64,000 nt of DNA from Ruminiclostridium papyrosolvens DSM 2782. Its GTDB lineage: Bacteria > Bacillota > Clostridia > Acetivibrionales > DSM-1351. The stretch is from assembly GCF_029318685.1 (NCBI RefSeq), contig NZ_CP119677.1, positions 2,967,001 to 3,031,000 of the forward strand, given 5' to 3'. Positions 33,687-44,925 of this stretch are shown one piece after another. The position numbers and the translations under genes are program-made. The notes beneath the pieces are model-generated. The model saw only the letters and a program-made list of their open reading frames with translations. It had not been told where the DNA came from and did no database searches. Position 1 is the stretch's first letter; every line of letters begins with the position of its first letter.

Positions 33687-34175
33687 ATGAATTATAAGAG
33701 CTTTGCATTAATTACTAAAAACGATAAAAAATTAAATTCACAGCACCCTACATATGAATCAGTTCCCTTTGGAATGCTTCTTGCCATTGTAGGCGGTTTT
33801 TTGGATGCATACACTTATATAGGCAGAGGAGGTGTCTTTGCAAATGCACAAACCGGAAACATTGTTTTTCTTGGTATTTATGCATCAAAAGGAGAATGGC
33901 ATCAGGCCCTTGCCCACCTCCCACCTATTATAGCCTTTGTACTTGGTGTAATTGTTGCTGAAGCTATAAAGGATAACTCGCCCAGACCGTACTTCAGGCA
34001 TTCGTGCCCTCCGCTATTTTGTAATTATTATTTCATTTGTCTCAGGCGCTTTTTTAGGAGAACTGCTTACTTTTAATTTCGGAGTAAGAGCTATTTGGGG
34101 TGCAGCGGTTGTTCTGGCTTTAACTGTAGTATTATTTAGGGTCGGTGAACGAAGGCGCTTGAGGAAATCATAATA
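33661..34175 (+). repeat. Direct repeat copy 2 (deleted DUF1275 region)
   Basis: Near-identical to 28568-29321 but lacking a 239-base stretch that corresponds to about 28894-29132 of copy 1. Confidence 0.9.
33687..34173 (+). pseudogene. DUF1275 gene copy broken by a 239-base deletion
   Basis: The first 100 or so codons match the intact gene at 28594 almost perfectly. The deletion removes the middle and shifts the frame (239 is not a multiple of three). An open frame continues out of register to 34076. The original 3' end is still recognisable in another frame up to 34173. Ribosome site and start are retained, so a truncated protein could still be made. Confidence 0.9.
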
Positions 34176-36469: not shown

Positions 36470-37993
36470 TTAATCCAGGCTGTATACTAGTGCGCCCTTC
36501 TTGCCATTACTGTCAAAAGTAAAAATTTCAAACTCCCGAGAGTCTGAATTACAAGGCATCATGTTCTTATAGCTTTGTTGTGTAATTGCTATCCCATCCA
36601 GTCCAAATAATTTGGAGAACCCATTGGTTTCAGCACAAATAACCTTTTTGATAACTTTAATACTCGTGAAGTTTGGGGTTAGAATAACTTTACCATTTTT
36701 ATCAAGTACTCCAAACTTTCCTTTTTCCTTTACTATATACAACTGGTTTTCGTAACTATGTTCAATTGAATCGTATTTTAGGTTTGTCAAGTACTTTCCA
36801 TTTTTGTCTATAATCCCGTACTTACCACCTTTCAATACAGCTGCAGTTCCAAACTCAAAATTCTCATTTCCGTTTTCATCTTTCATTATTTCAAATTGTG
36901 CCGTAATAACCAGCTTATTTTTTATATTTATGTAACCTATCTTCCCTTTTATAACAACCGGGGCCAAGCCGTAACAAAACGTCCCTGCTCCATCATACTG
37001 TGGTTTAATTATCTCTTTACCGTTTTTATCTATAAAACCATATTTGGTACCTTTTTTTACTTTCATATAACCATCGGCTGATATAGTACCTGCAGCGTCA
37101 AATTGTGGCTTAGCCAAAACCGTCATCTTTCTATTTATCAGTCCCAATTTTTTACCTTGGGAAAAGAAAGAGATATCATTTCTTCCAAAGTCATAAATAT
37201 AGTCATAAATTGGATTAAGCACAACACCGTCTCTAGTAGCAAGCCCGACTTTTTTATTTTTCACAAATGGAGCAAATCCGTCTCTATAGTCATATGCTTC
37301 ATCAAGCTGAGGCTTTACAACCTCTTTTCCGGTTTCATCAATATACCCCCATTTATTGCTAAAATCCTTTACCTGAGCAATCCCACCCCTAAAACTGACA
37401 AGGGTACCGATGCCTTCAGCTTCATAGCCAATCTGCGCATATTTGGGGGCAAGTATCTCTTTGCCTGTCTTATCAATAAGCCCCCATTTCCCTTTTACAC
37501 ATACAGGTACAACACCATTAGCAAAATCAAAAACATCATCATATTTTAATGGAATGACTTCTTTTCCTACTGTGTCAATGAAGCCCCATTTCCCTTGTAG
37601 CTCCACCCTTGCAAGTCCTTCAAAAAAGTTTCCGACACCATACATATCATATTTTATGTCAGTAATTTTTTTACCTTTCTCATCTATAAACCCAACTTTA
37701 TCGTCTTTTATAACCATAATAAACCCATGAAAGTAATCCCATATATCATCATAAATTGCGTCTGCTATAATAACACCATCTTTATTTATTACTCCATATT
37801 TATCATCGCTTTGAAATTTTAAAAGCGGCAGGTTATTGCTATTTATATCATAGTCTGAACTTGTAAGTTCCTCTAAATTGTCATACTTAGCCTGTAAAAC
37901 CGTTATTTTACTATCCAAGGTAGCTGCACCAACATTTGTACATAGCAATACTGATAAAACCGCAGCTAAAAATATAAGATATGTTCTCTTCAT
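36470..37993 (-). CDS. Secreted WG-repeat protein
   Basis: A 507-residue exported protein. A signal peptide (1-23, ending in NVGAAT) is followed by about eleven repeats of roughly 35 residues, each like KWGFIDTVGKEVIPLKYDDV (KWGLIDKTGKEILAPKY, KYGFIDKNGKEIIKPQYD and others). WG repeats form beta-rich modules probably used for binding; function is unknown. No anchor or dockerin is visible. Confidence 0.85.
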   Translation of the reverse strand: MKRTYLIFLAAVLSVLLCTNVGAATLDSKITVLQAKYDNLEELTSSDYDINSNNLPLLKFQSDDKYGVINKDGVIIADAIYDDIWDYFHGFIMVIKDDKVGFIDEKGKKITDIKYDMYGVGNFFEGLARVELQGKWGFIDTVGKEVIPLKYDDVFDFANGVVPVCVKGKWGLIDKTGKEILAPKYAQIGYEAEGIGTLVSFRGGIAQVKDFSNKWGYIDETGKEVVKPQLDEAYDYRDGFAPFVKNKKVGLATRDGVVLNPIYDYIYDFGRNDISFFSQGKKLGLINRKMTVLAKPQFDAAGTISADGYMKVKKGTKYGFIDKNGKEIIKPQYDGAGTFCYGLAPVVIKGKIGYINIKNKLVITAQFEIMKDENGNENFEFGTAAVLKGGKYGIIDKNGKYLTNLKYDSIEHSYENQLYIVKEKGKFGVLDKNGKVILTPNFTSIKVIKKVICAETNGFSKLFGLDGIAITQQSYKNMMPCNSDSREFEIFTFDSNGKKGALVYSLD

Positions 37994-38099
37994 AAATTAC
38001 CTCTTTTCTAAAAATGAATGTAATATACATATATTAGAACATATTGAATTTAATAACAGTTAGATGAAATAAATTCATCGGCAGTATGGTTTATGTAAA

Positions 38100-38648
38100 C
38101 TATTGTAATCTGTTTTCATGCATTTTATAAACATTTAACAGTTCATTTTTTATACTTACAGTACTATTTATATCAGTGTATGAAATATATTTAGAAAACT
38201 GATTGATATTGAAGTTTTTAATAATAAGCATTACCCGGTAAAATTCATTAATGTCCTCGTTTTTTCTCATAGTATCAATACAAGCTCTTTCATATAGTAT
38301 TTCCTTTCTATTATACAATCCAACGCCACAGAATTGATTATTTAACTGACTTTGTAAAAATGAAAGCTCGTTCAAATACCAAACACCGTCAATAATAAGA
38401 AAATCAACAGTTTCATGAAGCTTCAATATTTTATTTGCCCAAAAAGACTTGCCGAACAGTTGTAAAGATTCAATATACTTATCTTCCACTTCCTGACCAC
38501 TTAACGTGGGAGCATCATAAAAAGCTTTTATCAACTGCGACAATTTAACAATCTTTACTTTGTACCCCATAGCTGAATATTCATTCTCCAATTCCTTGGA
38601 AAACGTAGTTTTTCCTGCGCAGGGTAATCCAATTAAAGCAATAATCAT
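38100..38648 (-). CDS. P-loop kinase-like protein of the biosynthetic operon
   Basis: A 182-residue cytoplasmic P-loop protein. The Walker A is GLPCAGKTT (residues 7-15) and a Walker-B-like FLIIDGVWYL lies near residue 87. The overall shape recalls dephospho-CoA, adenylate or nucleoside kinases. Its ATG overlaps the stop of the carbamoyltransferase gene by four bases, so the two are translationally coupled. The substrate is unknown; a kinase acting on the cluster product or its precursor is inference. Confidence 0.65.
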   Translation of the reverse strand: MIIALIGLPCAGKTTFSKELENEYSAMGYKVKIVKLSQLIKAFYDAPTLSGQEVEDKYIESLQLFGKSFWANKILKLHETVDFLIIDGVWYLNELSFLQSQLNNQFCGVGLYNRKEILYERACIDTMRKNEDINEFYRVMLIIKNFNINQFSKYISYTDINSTVSIKNELLNVYKMHENRLQ

Positions 38649-40372
38649 AGCTTTTCACCTCTGTTTTTTACAATTTCGTAACTGCCTATATACAAATAAT
38701 CCAAGTCACTTTCCAAAAAACTGGCTACGGCTTCTTCAACACTACATACGATCGGCTGACCTTTGATATTAAAAGAAGTGTTTAATAATATAGGTATACC
38801 TGTTATTTGTTTGAAACATTTTATCAAGTTATAATATTTCTCATTATCACCTGCAGAAACAGTCTGTATTCTAGATGTACCATCAACATGTACAACAGCT
38901 GGTATTTGACTGATAATGCTTGGATTTGCTTTGACTGTTGACAGCATGTATTTATATAAAGAAAGTGCACAATTTTGAACTTGAAAAAACTCAGATACGT
39001 CTTCATATAATACTGAAGGTGCAAATGGTCTGAATTCTTCTCTGAATTTGATTTTTTTATTAATTAAATCCTTCATTCCAGAAAGTCTTGGGTCTGCAAG
39101 AATACTTCTATTGCCTAATGCACGTGGACCGAATTCCATACGTCCCTGATACCATCCGATAACATTTCCCTTTGATATTTTCTGGGCAGCACATTCACAA
39201 ACATTTTTTTGATAGTAATAACTAATATCCTTATATTTTGATATTCTAGCTTGTATATCAGCATCTGTATCTGTATCACGCCCAAGATATGCATTCTTTA
39301 ATTTAACCGTTGGAGTATTGGGACTTTTCAAATAAAAACAGTACAATGCGGCACCAAGTGATGTTCCTGCATCATTGGCTGCCGGATTAATAAATATGTT
39401 ATCAAAGAGCTGAGATTCCGCTATAGCTGTATTCATTGAGCAATTCAAAGCTACACCTCCAGCAAGACATAAGTTTTTGACAGTTTTATGCTTATTGAGC
39501 ACATCCTTTAAAATCTCCAACACTATTAAGTTTAAATGCTTTTGAAGTGAGTAAGCCAAATCAGCGTCATCTTGCCCAAGATTATTTTTATACCTGGGAC
39601 TGCCAAATGTTTTCTGAAATTTTTTCGAGTACAGCATTCTTCTTTTACCAAATTTATAATGATGGTCAAAGAAATGCAGATTAAGGCGAAATTTATTATT
39701 TTTCAGACTAAAAAGTTTACTTATCTTGTTATCAGCATCCTGATTTTGTCTCCCATATGATGCCAAGCCCATAACTTTATATTCATCATGCTTAGGTTTG
39801 AATCCCAAAAATTTTGTTAAAGCCGTATACATATATCCTATTGAGTGGGGATACTTATAGCTGTATAATTTTATAATTTTTGTTCCTTCTCCCTTGTATA
39901 TGCCTATTGTTTCATACTCCCCTCTGCCATCTAATGTAACAATGATAGCCGAAGCATATCCTGATGCATAATAGGAGCTGGCAGCATGTGCTAAATGATG
40001 ATTTACATAATGCACCTTATTTTTAAACTTTTCACCAAAGTAAGAATAAATCTGTCTATATATTTCTTTTCTTCTCTTAATCCACTTGATTATGTACGGA
40101 ATATATAATATCGACTTAGGAAATTGGGAAAAAGAATTATAAAAAAATAAACGCTTATACAGTTTTGGCTCCACAAATACCGCTATTTCATCTATTTGGT
40201 TCATGGTAATGCAACATGTTTTAAAACAATCTTCAATTGCTTCTTTAGGAAATTTTTTTGTATGCTTTTCTCTATTAAACCGCTCTGCTTCAGCAGCGTA
40301 TATTATTTCTCCATCTTTGACCAAAGATACGGCAGAATCGTGAGTAGTAAAATTTATACCTAATATATACAT
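38645..40372 (-). CDS. NodU/CmcH family O-carbamoyltransferase
   Basis: A 575-residue enzyme that transfers carbamoyl from carbamoyl phosphate, via carbamoyl-adenylate, to a hydroxyl group. The N-terminal ASKHA-like domain has LGINFTTHDSAVSLV and NHHLAHAASSYYAS (124-137). A central CLAGGVALNCSMN and NDAGTSLGAALY follow. The C-terminal domain has GRMEFGPRALGNRSILADPR and EEFRPFAPSVL. These enzymes decorate antibiotics, Nod factors and nucleosides. It is third in the operon, seven bases or less from its neighbours. Confidence 0.9.
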   Translation of the reverse strand: MYILGINFTTHDSAVSLVKDGEIIYAAEAERFNREKHTKKFPKEAIEDCFKTCCITMNQIDEIAVFVEPKLYKRLFFYNSFSQFPKSILYIPYIIKWIKRRKEIYRQIYSYFGEKFKNKVHYVNHHLAHAASSYYASGYASAIIVTLDGRGEYETIGIYKGEGTKIIKLYSYKYPHSIGYMYTALTKFLGFKPKHDEYKVMGLASYGRQNQDADNKISKLFSLKNNKFRLNLHFFDHHYKFGKRRMLYSKKFQKTFGSPRYKNNLGQDDADLAYSLQKHLNLIVLEILKDVLNKHKTVKNLCLAGGVALNCSMNTAIAESQLFDNIFINPAANDAGTSLGAALYCFYLKSPNTPTVKLKNAYLGRDTDTDADIQARISKYKDISYYYQKNVCECAAQKISKGNVIGWYQGRMEFGPRALGNRSILADPRLSGMKDLINKKIKFREEFRPFAPSVLYEDVSEFFQVQNCALSLYKYMLSTVKANPSIISQIPAVVHVDGTSRIQTVSAGDNEKYYNLIKCFKQITGIPILLNTSFNIKGQPIVCSVEEAVASFLESDLDYLYIGSYEIVKNRGEKL

Positions 40373-40378
40373 TATTTG

Positions 40379-41203
40379 TCACCTTATTCTTTCAAACATT
40401 TCCATGTTGATGCTGTCATAATAGCCTTGAGCACACCTGTTGGCAACCATAATATCTGATTTTACGTGTTCAATATTACCCATGGAAGTTACACACGTAT
40501 TTATTTCTGAAAAAGAAAGGCAAAATGCTAACATGTATTGATATATATCATCCGTTCCATTTTTGTAGCCAATTTCTTTCAATAGCTTTTGAAGTGAATC
40601 CTTAGCATTAATTTTGTTGCCGCAAAACGGCGAAAAAGTTATCAATATTTTATCATCTAATAAGCCTTTATTTAAATATGGAAGTAACCATCTTTCCTGA
40701 ACATTAAATTTAGCAGCCCATCCCTGTATATTAGAATACTGCATTGCAAGCTCAAAAATATTGGCATTTTCTATATAAAGCAAGCTCCTATACCTGTTGC
40801 TCATTGTAGTTGTCAAAAAATCATCAAGTCTTTTTATATTTTCTTTTGTTGCCAGATTTTTATCTGAAAATTCGAACTGCAATATAATTTCCGAACTACC
40901 TAAGGATTCACAGTTTAACATTATTTCACTATCAATTTGATTAAGCTTATCCATTTCTTTTATTTTAAGCTTAATCAAATGTGTAATTGTATTCTGTACC
41001 GGATTTTTTTTCAGCACTTCTTTAACTCCCCATTGGGTATAAAGGCTATGATTTGAATGTATTACATGTATGCCATTTTCTACAGCATAGTTTAAAGCCG
41101 CTAGTCCTTGCTCCGAATTGCATTGCGGATTAAGTTTTCCTGCCACGAAAGTTGAAGTACCATAGCCTAATTTTGATAACTTTTGATTATTTTTATTTAT
41201 CAT
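40379..41203 (-). CDS. Degenerate aldo-keto reductase-like protein
   Basis: A 274-residue protein with aldo-keto reductase outline: KLGYGTSTFVAG at the start, NYAVENGIHVIHSNHSLY where the family has its DTA-x-x-Y motif, and SMGNIEHVKSDI near the end. The catalytic Asp appears replaced by His, the usual catalytic Lys region reads ITHLIKL, and no family-type catalytic His is visible. Only the Tyr seems kept. It may bind rather than reduce a substrate, or catalyse something else. It lies between the radical SAM and carbamoyltransferase genes. Confidence 0.7.
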   Translation of the reverse strand: MINKNNQKLSKLGYGTSTFVAGKLNPQCNSEQGLAALNYAVENGIHVIHSNHSLYTQWGVKEVLKKNPVQNTITHLIKLKIKEMDKLNQIDSEIMLNCESLGSSEIILQFEFSDKNLATKENIKRLDDFLTTTMSNRYRSLLYIENANIFELAMQYSNIQGWAAKFNVQERWLLPYLNKGLLDDKILITFSPFCGNKINAKDSLQKLLKEIGYKNGTDDIYQYMLAFCLSFSEINTCVTSMGNIEHVKSDIMVANRCAQGYYDSINMEMFERIR

Positions 41204-41250
41204 CTGATTATGTCCTTTGCTTAAAAAATTAGTGCCAGTAGTATAAGAGA

Positions 41251-42291
41251 TTATTTCTCAATTAATGATTTAAAATAATCCAACTCTTTCGGAGCATCAA
41301 CTTTCCCAAATCTCAATTCGCCTAGTTGTCCACGAAAATGTTTTCTTTTAGGATCAATAAAATCCAAATTTTCTCTTTCCTTCATTAAATAACCTACTAA
41401 ATCAACTTTTTCTTTCAATGTCGTGTTCGTAAAATTATAAATTTTATTTTGATGTAAACAAACAGAAAGATTACCATAAGGCTGAACTCTTAATTTATGG
41501 CACCTTCCGCACGGATATTCTTTTGAAAACATAGACAATAAAGCAATAATAATATTGTATTTTTTAACTAAATAATAATCATAGCTGGGATTATCACCTT
41601 CAATTTCGCTACGATCAATAGGTATAATATCTGATATTTCACGATACTTTGAAAGTATTTCTTCAGATGAAACAAACTCTTCAGACCAGTATTTTGCACC
41701 CTCTGCGGATAGTTGCCTTGGGTTACACGGAAAAAATTGATTAAACTTAATTGCCAACCTTCCTAAATATCCTTTATGGTTTATACAATTGGCATATTGG
41801 AAGAAATCCTCAAATTCCAAAAGCGTTGAACGCATAGTAACTACACTGAGTTTTGTTAGTGTAGGCAATTTTGAAACGCTCGCCTCAATGGTTTTCAATA
41901 CATTATCTAAGCAATTCATACCTGTTAATGCTTTAAATCTATCTTTTTTTAACGAGTCAATACTTACGATGACTCTGGTTAAACCGTTTTCTATATACTT
42001 ATTAATATCATTATGTAATGTTTGACCGTTTGTAGTTATTATCTGCTGCGTTATTCCAATTTCTTTTGCTGCTTTCATCAGCTCAGGAAGATCCTGACGT
42101 ATTGTTGGTTCTCCCCCTGTCCAATGTATTCTTGTTATGCCGTTACATCGTGAAGCTTCTATTAATTCCACAAGATCTTTAAAGCTAACATTTTCTTTAT
42201 CTTCCCAAAGACCTTCAGGGTTGCAATATACACACCTGAAATTACACCTGGATGTAACACCTATTCTTAAATGCCAATTTTTTTCATTCAT
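41251..42291 (-). CDS. MoaA-like radical SAM enzyme
   Basis: A 346-residue radical SAM enzyme. The SAM-cluster motif CNFRCVYC (Cys16, 20, 23) and GGEPT lie in the barrel. Near the C-terminus CGRC-HKLRVQPYGNLSV-C gives C-x2-C-x13-C, the second iron-sulfur motif of MoaA. The double-Gly tail of true MoaA is missing (ends FKSLIEK), and no other molybdopterin genes are in this window. I infer a paralogue recruited for another product. The ATG at 42291 has AGGAG at good spacing and is preferred to 42297. Confidence 0.85.
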   Translation of the reverse strand: MNEKNWHLRIGVTSRCNFRCVYCNPEGLWEDKENVSFKDLVELIEASRCNGITRIHWTGGEPTIRQDLPELMKAAKEIGITQQIITTNGQTLHNDINKYIENGLTRVIVSIDSLKKDRFKALTGMNCLDNVLKTIEASVSKLPTLTKLSVVTMRSTLLEFEDFFQYANCINHKGYLGRLAIKFNQFFPCNPRQLSAEGAKYWSEEFVSSEEILSKYREISDIIPIDRSEIEGDNPSYDYYLVKKYNIIIALLSMFSKEYPCGRCHKLRVQPYGNLSVCLHQNKIYNFTNTTLKEKVDLVGYLMKERENLDFIDPKRKHFRGQLGELRFGKVDAPKELDYFKSLIEK

Positions 42292-42367
42292 TTGCATTTC
42301 TCCTAACCCAATAAATTAACAAATGCTTTTAAAAGCCTTTTTTTCTGTGCTAAACCAAATTTACTAA

Positions 42368-42396
42368 ATTATACTATCATAGTTATATAGTGTCAA
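42368..42396 (-). promoter_or_regulatory. Consensus promoter of the radical SAM/carbamoyltransferase operon
   Basis: On the minus strand perfect TTGACA (42396-42391) and TATAAT (42373-42368) with a 17-base spacer. A small inverted repeat AGTG-ATTGA-CACT overlaps the -35 and could be an operator. Confidence 0.85.
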
Positions 42397-42435
42397 TCAC
42401 TATGAATAACTGTAAAACGGCTGTTGACACTCCTT

Positions 42436-42738
42436 TTATTGGCGAAGGATACTTTCTAGGTAGTCTATTTCAACTGAGATTGTTGGGGGATTTACTGTTA
42501 CGTTAGCTATAGCTTGATTAGTTGTACCGTTTACAGTTCCTTTATAACCAACAGTTATGAATGCATTATTACCCCAAGTAATACCATATAGTATTGTTAT
42601 AGTTGGTTTGTTTACTTTTATAGTACTCCATGTAATTTCTCTGGAAGCTGAAACCTGATTTACTTGAAAAACTAAAGCTATACCGCATAAAATAATGTAT
42701 AATAAAGTAAATATATGCACTTTTCTTCTCATTAACAT
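42436..42738 (-). CDS. Small secreted protein, possibly a truncated repeat protein
   Basis: A 100-residue protein with a signal peptide (about 1-31, ending VSA). The segment ILYGITWGNNAFITVGYKG resembles one blade of the WGN..F..VG..G repeats found in secreted propeller proteins, but only one repeat is present and the rest (NVTVNPPTISVEI) looks like a different module. It may be the remnant of a larger gene. Not part of the downstream operon, which has its own promoter. Confidence 0.5.
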   Translation of the reverse strand: MLMRRKVHIFTLLYIILCGIALVFQVNQVSASREITWSTIKVNKPTITILYGITWGNNAFITVGYKGTVNGTTNQAIANVTVNPPTISVEIDYLESILRQ

Positions 42739-42888
42739 TATTTATCCTATATTGTTTTATTTTGTAATATATAGTAGTATTATAGGCTATTGCTTTAATT
42801 TAAACAATATATTTCTATAATGTGAAGTGCTATTTAAAGGACAGGTTCTTGTAAGAGGATGCTGCAGAAATAATTAAATCTTTTTACA

Positions 42889-42915
42889 CAAAAAAAGCAG
42901 ATACATATCTGTACC
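42889..42915 (-). terminator. Probable terminator after ligA
   Basis: On the minus strand ACAGATATGTATCTGC is followed by seven Ts. The stem is short, so confidence is moderate. Confidence 0.5.
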
Positions 42916-42951
42916 CGCCTTCTCTCTAACCTTATTGAATTTTTTTAACGC

Positions 42952-44925
42952 TTACTCAGGCTTTACCCCGTTATTTATCCATTCAACAAACTGCGCTTCT
43001 GTTATAATACTTATGTTTAGCTCTTTTGCTTTTTTATTTTTTGACGAATTAGATAAATTATCGTTATTTATAAGATAGTTGGTTTTTGAAGTAACCGAGC
43101 CGGTTACTTTTCCGCCTTTTTCCTCAATAACCCCCTTTAATTCATCCCTGTTTTTAAACATCTCAACAGACCCCGTAATGACAAAGTTTACATTCTCAAA
43201 AATCTGTTCTGATTGAGATACCTGAACCTCCTCAAGTTCAAGCTCCTTTAAAACATCATGAACTATAATCCTCTTCTTTTCATCGGCAAAAAAGCTGATG
43301 AAGGATTCCGCCATAATATCACCGATTCCGCCTATTTGAATTAGTTCGGTAAAATCAGCATTCTCAATATTATTCCAATCGTATTTAAAATATTTGCATA
43401 TGAGCTTCGCATTAGACAAACCTACATTGGGAATACCAAGGCTATATAGAAGCCTTATAGCAGTTGTTTTTCTGGCCTTATTTATTGACGCAATCAATTT
43501 ATTAAAGGATTTTTCCCCCAGGCCCTCCATCTCAATTATTTCATTTTTGTACATTTCTATATGAAATAAGTCAGCCAGTTCTTTTATTAAGCCTTTCGCA
43601 ATTAATTTTTCCAAAGTGGCTTCTGATAAACCTTCTATATTCATAGCATCCCTGCTTACGAAATGGGTAAAGGACTTAATCTGCTTTGCAAGACACTCAT
43701 TATTGACACAATATAATGTTTTTACCCCATTCTCCTGCTTTATTTCAGTTTTGCCGCTGCAAACAGGACACTCTTCAGGTATTGGTGCCATACCGCTTCT
43801 GGTGAGATTTTCAGAAATCTGGGGTATAATCATATTTGCCTTATATACACCTATGGTATCACCAATTCCCAACTCCAGCCCCTCCATAATACTTAGATTA
43901 TGTATACTGGCTCTGCTTACAGTGGTTCCTTCCAGCTCAACCGGCTCAAAAATTGCAATAGGATTTATCAACCCGGTTCTTGATGCACTCCACTCAATTT
44001 CAAGAAGGGTAGTTTCTTTGATTTCGTCCCTCCACTTAAAAGCAATGGAATCTCTGGGGAATTTAGCCGTAGAGCCCAACGATTCTCCATAGGCAATGTT
44101 ATCAAATGTAAGCACCAACCCGTCTGACGGCAAATCGTTTGCTTCAATATTCTGTGAAAACCATTGAACGGTTTCTTCTATATCATTACTTGTTACCTCT
44201 TTAAACTCCACAATGTCAAAGCCCTGATTTTTCAACCAGTTCATTTGAGAAGCTCTGGAGTTTTCAAGCTCAACATTATCGGCTTTTACCAACGAAAAGG
44301 CAAAGAAATATACATTTCTTTCCGAGGTAACCTTGTTATTCAGCTGTCTTACAGACCCGCTGCAAAGGTTTCTGGGATTCTTATATTTTGCATCAACGTC
44401 TGATATTTCATTATTTATTTTAATAAAATCAGAATATCGGATAATGGCTTCACCGCGCAAAATCAACGTGTCCTTGTATGCTATGGTAACAGGCAAGTTC
44501 CTGAATACCCTTGCATTATTTGTAATAACCTCTCCCACTTCACCGGTGCCTCTTGTAACCGCCTTTACCAAATGCCCGTCCTGATAAGTCAACACAATAG
44601 TAAGACCGTCTAGTTTCCATGAAAGAATACCCTTTTGTGTACCTATCCATTCCTTTAACGCACCGACCTCCTTGGTCTTATCCAATGAAAGCATAGGTTT
44701 TTCATGACGTTCTTTTGGCAGATTGCTCAGAAGCTCATAGCCTACATGAATAGACGGACTATTGGAAAGAACAACACCTGTTTCTTTTTCAAGTTCCAAT
44801 AATTCATCATAAAGCTTGTCGTATTCTATATTAGGCATAATTTCAGTATTTTCCTGATAATATGCTTTCGCCGCTTTGTTAAGTATCTCAATCTTATCTT
44901 TCATTAGTTGAATTTTATCTGCCAT
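42952..44925 (-). CDS. ligA: NAD-dependent DNA ligase
   Basis: A 657-residue ligase that seals nicks using NAD+. The nucleotidyltransferase domain has the adenylated lysine in KLDG (Lys104). An OB fold follows, then a Cys4 zinc finger (CPVC near 390 and CVNNEC near 411), helix-hairpin-helix repeats and a C-terminal BRCT domain (about 580-657, NFVITGSVEMFKNRDEL). The sequence diverges from typical LigA at places such as SNSPSIHVGYE (usual DSPTQRVG) and KLDG (usual KIDG), so it may be a second, divergent ligase. Confidence 0.88.
   Translation of the reverse strand: MADKIQLMKDKIEILNKAAKAYYQENTEIMPNIEYDKLYDELLELEKETGVVLSNSPSIHVGYELLSNLPKERHEKPMLSLDKTKEVGALKEWIGTQKGILSWKLDGLTIVLTYQDGHLVKAVTRGTGEVGEVITNNARVFRNLPVTIAYKDTLILRGEAIIRYSDFIKINNEISDVDAKYKNPRNLCSGSVRQLNNKVTSERNVYFFAFSLVKADNVELENSRASQMNWLKNQGFDIVEFKEVTSNDIEETVQWFSQNIEANDLPSDGLVLTFDNIAYGESLGSTAKFPRDSIAFKWRDEIKETTLLEIEWSASRTGLINPIAIFEPVELEGTTVSRASIHNLSIMEGLELGIGDTIGVYKANMIIPQISENLTRSGMAPIPEECPVCSGKTEIKQENGVKTLYCVNNECLAKQIKSFTHFVSRDAMNIEGLSEATLEKLIAKGLIKELADLFHIEMYKNEIIEMEGLGEKSFNKLIASINKARKTTAIRLLYSLGIPNVGLSNAKLICKYFKYDWNNIENADFTELIQIGGIGDIMAESFISFFADEKKRIIVHDVLKELELEEVQVSQSEQIFENVNFVITGSVEMFKNRDELKGVIEEKGGKVTGSVTSKTNYLINNDNLSNSSKNKKAKELNISIITEAQFVEWINNGVKPE

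Follow-up and report, generated by a model that had tools for sequence, protein, structure and literature searches.

Introduction

The radical S-adenosylmethionine (SAM) enzyme MoaA is usually credited with a single task: it opens the synthesis of the molybdenum cofactor. Three other described systems share parts with the locus presented here: the prokaryotic viperins (pVip/VakA), in which a small radical SAM enzyme adjoins a nucleotide-type kinase; phage thymidine hypermodification, in which a P-loop kinase and a radical SAM enzyme act on a nucleotide; and the NodU/CmcH O-carbamoyltransferases (GdmN, NovN, TobZ), recognisable by two domains and a set of conserved motifs. Here we analyse a four-gene operon of Ruminiclostridium papyrosolvens DSM 2782 that brings together a MoaA-related radical SAM enzyme, a degenerate aldo-keto reductase (AKR)-like protein, a NodU/CmcH-type carbamoyltransferase and a small P-loop kinase-like protein, and that lies in a 64,000-nucleotide stretch of contig NZ_CP119677.1 (positions 2,967,001 to 3,031,000; hereafter the window, whose own numbering is used for its features throughout).

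The locus departs from each of these systems. Unlike the viperins, it has a second iron-sulfur (Fe-S) motif, kinship with MoaA, and added carbamoyltransferase and AKR-like genes; unlike the phage pathway, it is chromosomal and its four genes include no recognised phage gene or hydroxymethyl-base synthase; and its carbamoyltransferase, while sharing both domains and the conserved motifs of the NodU/CmcH family, sits beside a MoaA-like enzyme, a degenerate AKR and a kinase and is at most 41% identical to the relatives found. An earlier note on this DNA, made from the letters alone, had not matched the combination to any described system, and we likewise found no account of it in the literature searched, which covered few subscription papers.

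A MoaA relative in a genome lacking MoaC

The open reading frame (ORF) list bears out the layout first noted for this locus, a minus-strand run of four ORFs (38100-42297) with intergenic gaps of 47 and 6 bases and a 4-base overlap between the last pair:

41251-42297, minus strand: MoaA-related radical SAM enzyme, 348 amino acids (346 if begun at 42291), with both three-Cys motifs and no GG tail
40379-41203, minus strand: degenerate AKR-like protein, 274 amino acids, with a weak Pfam match
38645-40372, minus strand: NodU/CmcH-type O-carbamoyltransferase, 575 amino acids, with conserved motifs kept
38100-38648, minus strand: small P-loop kinase-like protein, 182 amino acids, weakly similar to nucleoside monophosphate kinases and AdkA

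The first enzyme carries both Fe-S motifs of MoaA (C18-x3-C22-x2-C25 and C263-x2-C266-x13-C280) and lacks the terminal double glycine, as the earlier note had read from the sequence. It matches Pfam Radical_SAM at 79.7 bits and Mob_synth_C at 36.5 bits, just below the cut-off of 37.4, and scores 169.6 bits against NCBIfam moaA (TIGR02666), under the cut-off of 284. The host genome is a single contig of 5,027,861 bases, and a whole-genome scan found no protein above the moaA cut-off, the window protein being the best match to that model. Searches of the whole genome for MoaC (PF01967) and for molybdopterin oxidoreductases (PF00384) each found none but gave hits in 11 of the 14 genomes used as controls, so that the earlier remark that no other moa genes lie nearby now extends, for MoaC, to the entire genome. 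The sub-threshold moaA score, the missing GG and the missing MoaC and PF00384 proteins together support the view that this enzyme is a MoaA relative with no role in molybdenum cofactor synthesis, as that note had suspected.

Comparison with 50 MoaA-like proteins, comprising 18 of 29 class-genome loci, 25 of 30 other motif-pattern loci and 7 of 9 new loci from the window's phylum (the rest having been excluded by length or motif filters), set the window protein apart together with a single archaeal relative, L165, described below. All 50 end in GG, unlike the pair; Asn stands at position 110 in all 50 and Ile in the pair, position 58 is Arg in 49 and His in the pair, and position 184 is Arg in 49 and Lys in the pair. 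When aligned to Staphylococcus aureus MoaA, at positions that we take to contact guanosine triphosphate (GTP), the window protein keeps R17 and R268 and substitutes K69 by R, R71 by H, R192 by K and R266 by K; L165 carries identical residues at all of these, and the pocket is basic in both. The enzyme thus resembles MoaA in its radical SAM core, its second-cluster CxxC-x13-C motif and its R17 and R268 equivalents, and differs in the lost GG, R71 to H, R192 to K, N110 to I, the sub-threshold score and the absence of MoaC and molybdopterin oxidoreductases from its genome.

A second subfamily member in an archaeal genome

The motif pattern R-x3-T-x-R-C-N-[FLIMV]-R-C-x-Y-C-N-P returned 31 genome-contig stretches, 30 of which held a radical SAM ORF similar by BLAST. 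One of them, L165, from a Nanoarchaeota metagenome-assembled genome (JAHJSS010000075.1), is 35% identical to the window protein over 339 residues (207 BLAST bits), while the other 29 reached at most 121 bits and the best relative in the class 139; among 391 class genomes, with up to five candidates scored in each, there was no further match above 131 HMMER bits. Common to the two proteins are YCNP, HWTGGEPT, the missing GG and an end of the form RKH..G..G..RFG. They pair at 100/92 in a 49-row tree and at 100/99 in a 52-row unrooted tree built without an outgroup and without the viral sequence L170.

A profile made from both members found no third among 327 genomes of the archaeon's phylum (best score after its own genome 94 bits) or among 358 genomes of the phylum to which the window belongs (151 bits at most once its own genome is set aside), both samples being subsets of larger groups, and the seven window-phylum proteins compared all end in GG. 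The motif-pattern scan was strict, so members with differing motif letters would have been missed.

The L165 gene begins 4 bases after a 398-amino-acid ORF that joins an AAA_28/NadR-like half to a thymidylate-kinase half, and a gene for an HD-domain protein comes next. The basic pocket and this nucleotide-kinase-like partner are consistent with a nucleotide-like substrate. Separately, viral contig L170 (9581-10327) encodes a 248-amino-acid radical SAM ORF with HWTGGEPT; its neighbours, which by eye we take to be 3'-phosphoadenosine-5'-phosphosulfate (PAPS)-reductase-like and methylase-like, make DNA modification a possible role for that region.

The three partner proteins

Identity of the carbamoyltransferase was upheld by both Pfam domains, Carbam_trans_C (229.9 bits) and Carbam_trans_N (207.7 bits), each over its cut-off. 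The closest solved structures are GdmN (336.8 bits) and decarbamoylnovobiocin carbamoyltransferase, NovN (310.5 bits), both of which we take to act on antibiotics. HHxxHA, DGRGE, EFGPRALG and NTSFN match GdmN, and the conserved motifs are also kept relative to four homologues.

The AKR-like protein matches Pfam Aldo_ket_red at E=0.015 and 14.9 bits, under the cut-off of 24, in agreement with its first description as degenerate. It aligns end to end with an ordinary AKR at 22-23% identity; at the positions that we take to be the Asp-Tyr-Lys-His tetrad, two alignments (22% identity, and hence uncertain) both replace Asp by His and His by Ser and both keep Tyr, and one keeps Lys. The P-loop assigned to the fourth protein is present as the Walker A sequence GLPCAGKT. 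Its matches are weak (3lw7, AdkA-like, E 0.0028; AAA_18, 2.4e-5, under cut-off), and it passes the KTI12 cut-off (24.8 vs 22 bits) over residues 2-39 only, the P-loop region.

Distribution of the four genes

Carbamoyltransferase homologues at E <=1e-20 occur in 7 of 391 class genomes including its own, the other six at 36-41% identity. Comparison of those six loci with the four proteins of the operon, in which a second G354 copy lay outside the stretch, gave no kinase match; the lone AKR-like match (E 0.003) was to a 659-amino-acid ORF of L055 that itself bears a radical-SAM-type Cys motif, and radical SAM ORFs lie near two of the six (G354 and G170), scoring at most 57 bits. At the G354 locus (L052:942-9825), a NodU-type carbamoyltransferase is followed by three ORFs and next by four that have radical-SAM-type Cys motifs, all on a single strand.

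Among mobile elements, tblastn with the carbamoyltransferase matched 279 plasmid and 143 phage records, and its alignment matched at least 600 stretches of viral contigs, the best 80 at 31-36% identity; a single-protein search of viral contigs gave four stretches and no relative. The radical SAM protein matched 75 plasmid records (the 40 listed reaching at most 107 bits) and 11 phage records (best 97 bits), and L165 matched 43 plasmid records (the 10 listed reaching at most 119 bits); a radical SAM search of genome contigs returned 20 stretches and no relative. For the AKR-like protein, viral contigs yielded one stretch and no relative, and neither it nor the kinase matched phages or plasmids. 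A second alignment query (A2) found 25 viral loci, which it matched in part and no more strongly than E 1e-14, and three motif patterns found zero, zero and two viral stretches, the two being a chance match in a 1473-amino-acid ORF and L170.

Promoter, insertion site and surroundings

Three further features accompany the operon:

42368-42396, minus strand: sigma-70-type promoter TTGACA-17-TATAAT
42377-42431, no strand assigned: inverted repeats at the promoter (two pairs), a possible operator
38069-42880, approximate, no strand assigned: insertion between ligA and a WG-repeat gene, which the two nearest relatives lack here

The promoter called perfect at first reading is so (12 of 12 positions); perfect sites appeared in 1 of 300 simulated 8-kb stretches of the same dinucleotide make-up, once in the real 8 kb and three times in the whole window. 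One repeat pair is TCATAGT (42405-42399) and ACTATGA (42383-42377), the other AGTGTCAA (42431-42424) and TTGACACT (42396-42389); because they overlap the promoter, it may be regulated. The sequence AGGAG at 42304-42300 stands 2 bases ahead of the listed radical SAM ATG and 8 ahead of the in-frame ATG at 42291, with which the start of L165 aligns, so the protein may begin at 42291. An Rfam scan of 37900-43100 gave no match. Inside the insert, a 100-amino-acid ORF (42436-42738) with a signal-like start and no Pfam match could be either a remnant or the gene of a small secreted protein.

Judged by LigA, G005 (96% identity) and G008 (95%) are the closest of the ten genus genomes, and in both the WG-repeat gene follows about 350 bases past ligA with the operon missing. 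Alignment to these relatives stops near 42881 and picks up near 38063-38068, so that about 4.8 kb replaces about 200-220 bases; the other eight genus genomes had neither operon nor WG gene in the fetched ligA flank. The operon has a G+C content of 0.30-0.35, its surroundings one of 0.34-0.39. The operon was probably acquired horizontally, and recently.

By Pfam, 20 flanking window genes belong mainly to transport, cellulosome, sporulation and housekeeping families, including GerA and two proteins with dockerins, which points to a clostridium that forms cellulosomes and spores. In both nearest relatives (L213:4124-7896, L214:5207-9033) the WG-repeat and GNAT genes are separated by genes for a 780-amino-acid protein and a patatin-like phospholipase; the former has no Pfam match in L213, and PADLOC phospholipase effectors match the region weakly. 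The window lacks both genes here, and its GNAT and DEAD-helicase genes stand in reversed order relative to those genomes. A 129-amino-acid DUF1275 ORF at 33687-34076 covers positions 2-72 of the 193-position family, and since the G005 homologue has 243 amino acids, the window copy looks truncated.

Discussion

We tentatively favour, at somewhat less than even confidence, a reading in which the operon is a self-contained module whose product is a nucleotide-like molecule altered by radical chemistry, carbamoylated and phosphorylated. At its second [4Fe-4S] cluster the radical SAM enzyme would bind an anionic, phosphorylated substrate, probably a nucleotide, for which GTP binding at the second cluster of MoaA (PMC5352715) serves as the model. 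Radical chemistry by the 5'-deoxyadenosyl radical would then modify that substrate, the carbamoyltransferase would place a carbamoyl group on a hydroxyl, the P-loop protein would phosphorylate substrate or product, and the AKR-like protein would be a non-canonical triosephosphate isomerase (TIM)-barrel enzyme or a binding partner. The operon itself, the family assignments and conserved motifs, the missing GG and cofactor genes and the insertion relative to the two closest genomes are read directly from sequence; we infer the nucleotide nature of the substrate, the horizontal acquisition, the order of steps, and the identity and role of the product. By ORF list and Pfam, the four genes include no transporter, nonribosomal peptide synthetase or glycosyltransferase; since the operon encodes no transporter, an intracellular site of action is likely for the product.

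A number of observations weigh against this reading. The enzyme has other residues at R71 and N110, which nearly all MoaA proteins keep, so GTP may not be its substrate. The subfamily consists of two sequences, both on long branches, and for the 49-row tree the program issued a warning that long branches meet; in that tree the pair and viral L170 stand beside two class MoaA-like rows (86/94). The phylogeny called for earlier supports the pairing with L165, and with none of the 50 MoaA-like proteins, and the pair may have arisen inside or beside MoaA. For the other three proteins of the operon the 8 kb around L165 gave no homologous match, and the two kinases align only at the P-loop (BLAST E 0.001), so that the recurring partner is a P-loop kinase in a loose sense, at two loci. 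An AKR-like orthologue was absent from all 59 relatives, including the ten genus genomes, and the other 390 class genomes gave none convincing, their two weak hits being an ordinary AKR at 23% identity and a stop-containing fragment. Nor did the relatives, class genomes, phages and plasmids searched hold another locus with all four genes; the earlier note had named such a lack of conservation as counting against its reading, and the neighbourhood recurs only as a radical SAM gene beside a different P-loop kinase, once. Single-sequence structure predictions reached a predicted local distance difference test (pLDDT) score of 41 for the AKR-like protein and 40 for the kinase.

The product may instead be a small specialised metabolite of ordinary kind that carries a carbamoyl group (a modified sugar or amino acid, or a compound resembling an antibiotic) and is free of any nucleotide, the radical SAM enzyme acting on another anionic substrate. 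The antibiotic-tailoring kin of the carbamoyltransferase and the replacement of MoaA N110 and R58 in both subfamily members lend this some weight, but the basic pocket is largely kept, the archaeal gene adjoins nucleotide-type kinases and the operon lacks a transporter, and we regard it as a real but doubtful possibility. A viperin-like antiviral module, in which radical SAM enzyme and nucleotide kinase make a modified nucleotide blocking phage replication, draws on matches of the radical SAM protein to PADLOC viperin models (best 2.6e-20), of the archaeal kinase to VakA (1.4e-9) and of the window kinase to an anti-phage dCTPase model (6.4e-8), and on insertion as a single operon in a variable region where relatives have a patatin gene. 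The PADLOC viperin match is, however, confined to the radical SAM core (residues 7-135); the NCBIfam prokaryotic viperin model NF038283 scores 63.3 bits, under its cut-off of 180, vs 169.6 for moaA; neither the AKR-like protein nor the carbamoyltransferase has a PADLOC match; and the 20 flanking genes, judged by Pfam only, are of the mainly transport, cellulosome, sporulation and housekeeping kinds named above. To our knowledge carbamoyltransferases fall outside known viperin systems, and we consider such a module unlikely. Quite unlikely, too, is a counterpart of viperin derived from MoaA: a horizontally mobile module of repurposed MoaA and nucleotide kinase, evolved independently and with a core common to a bacterium and a DPANN archaeon, which would make a new radical-modified nucleotide, carbamoylated in the bacterial version, as an intracellular antiviral or signal.

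A macromolecular target, such as tRNA or some other nucleic acid, in place of a free metabolite would suit the relation of the carbamoyltransferase to TsaD (Pfam TsaD, 3.6e-8), the small protein's KTI12 score and the presence of Nol-like carbamoyltransferases in cyanophages. Yet the KTI12 match is limited to the P-loop region and Pfam finds no RNA-binding domain in the four proteins, and we consider this very unlikely. We reject, as extremely improbable, that the radical SAM gene is the genome's divergent MoaA: no other protein of the genome matches the MoaA model better, and it sits beside two MoaA-like rows in the 49-row tree, but it scores below the cut-off, has no GG tail, pairs with L165, and belongs to a genome without MoaC or molybdopterin oxidoreductases.

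Returning to the favoured module, the operon is small enough for whole expression and assay, so the substrate question is directly testable. A subfamily that keeps both cluster motifs and a basic pocket but has lost the GG, and that in the case of the window belongs to a genome with neither MoaC nor molybdopterin oxidoreductase, would represent a redirection of MoaA chemistry.

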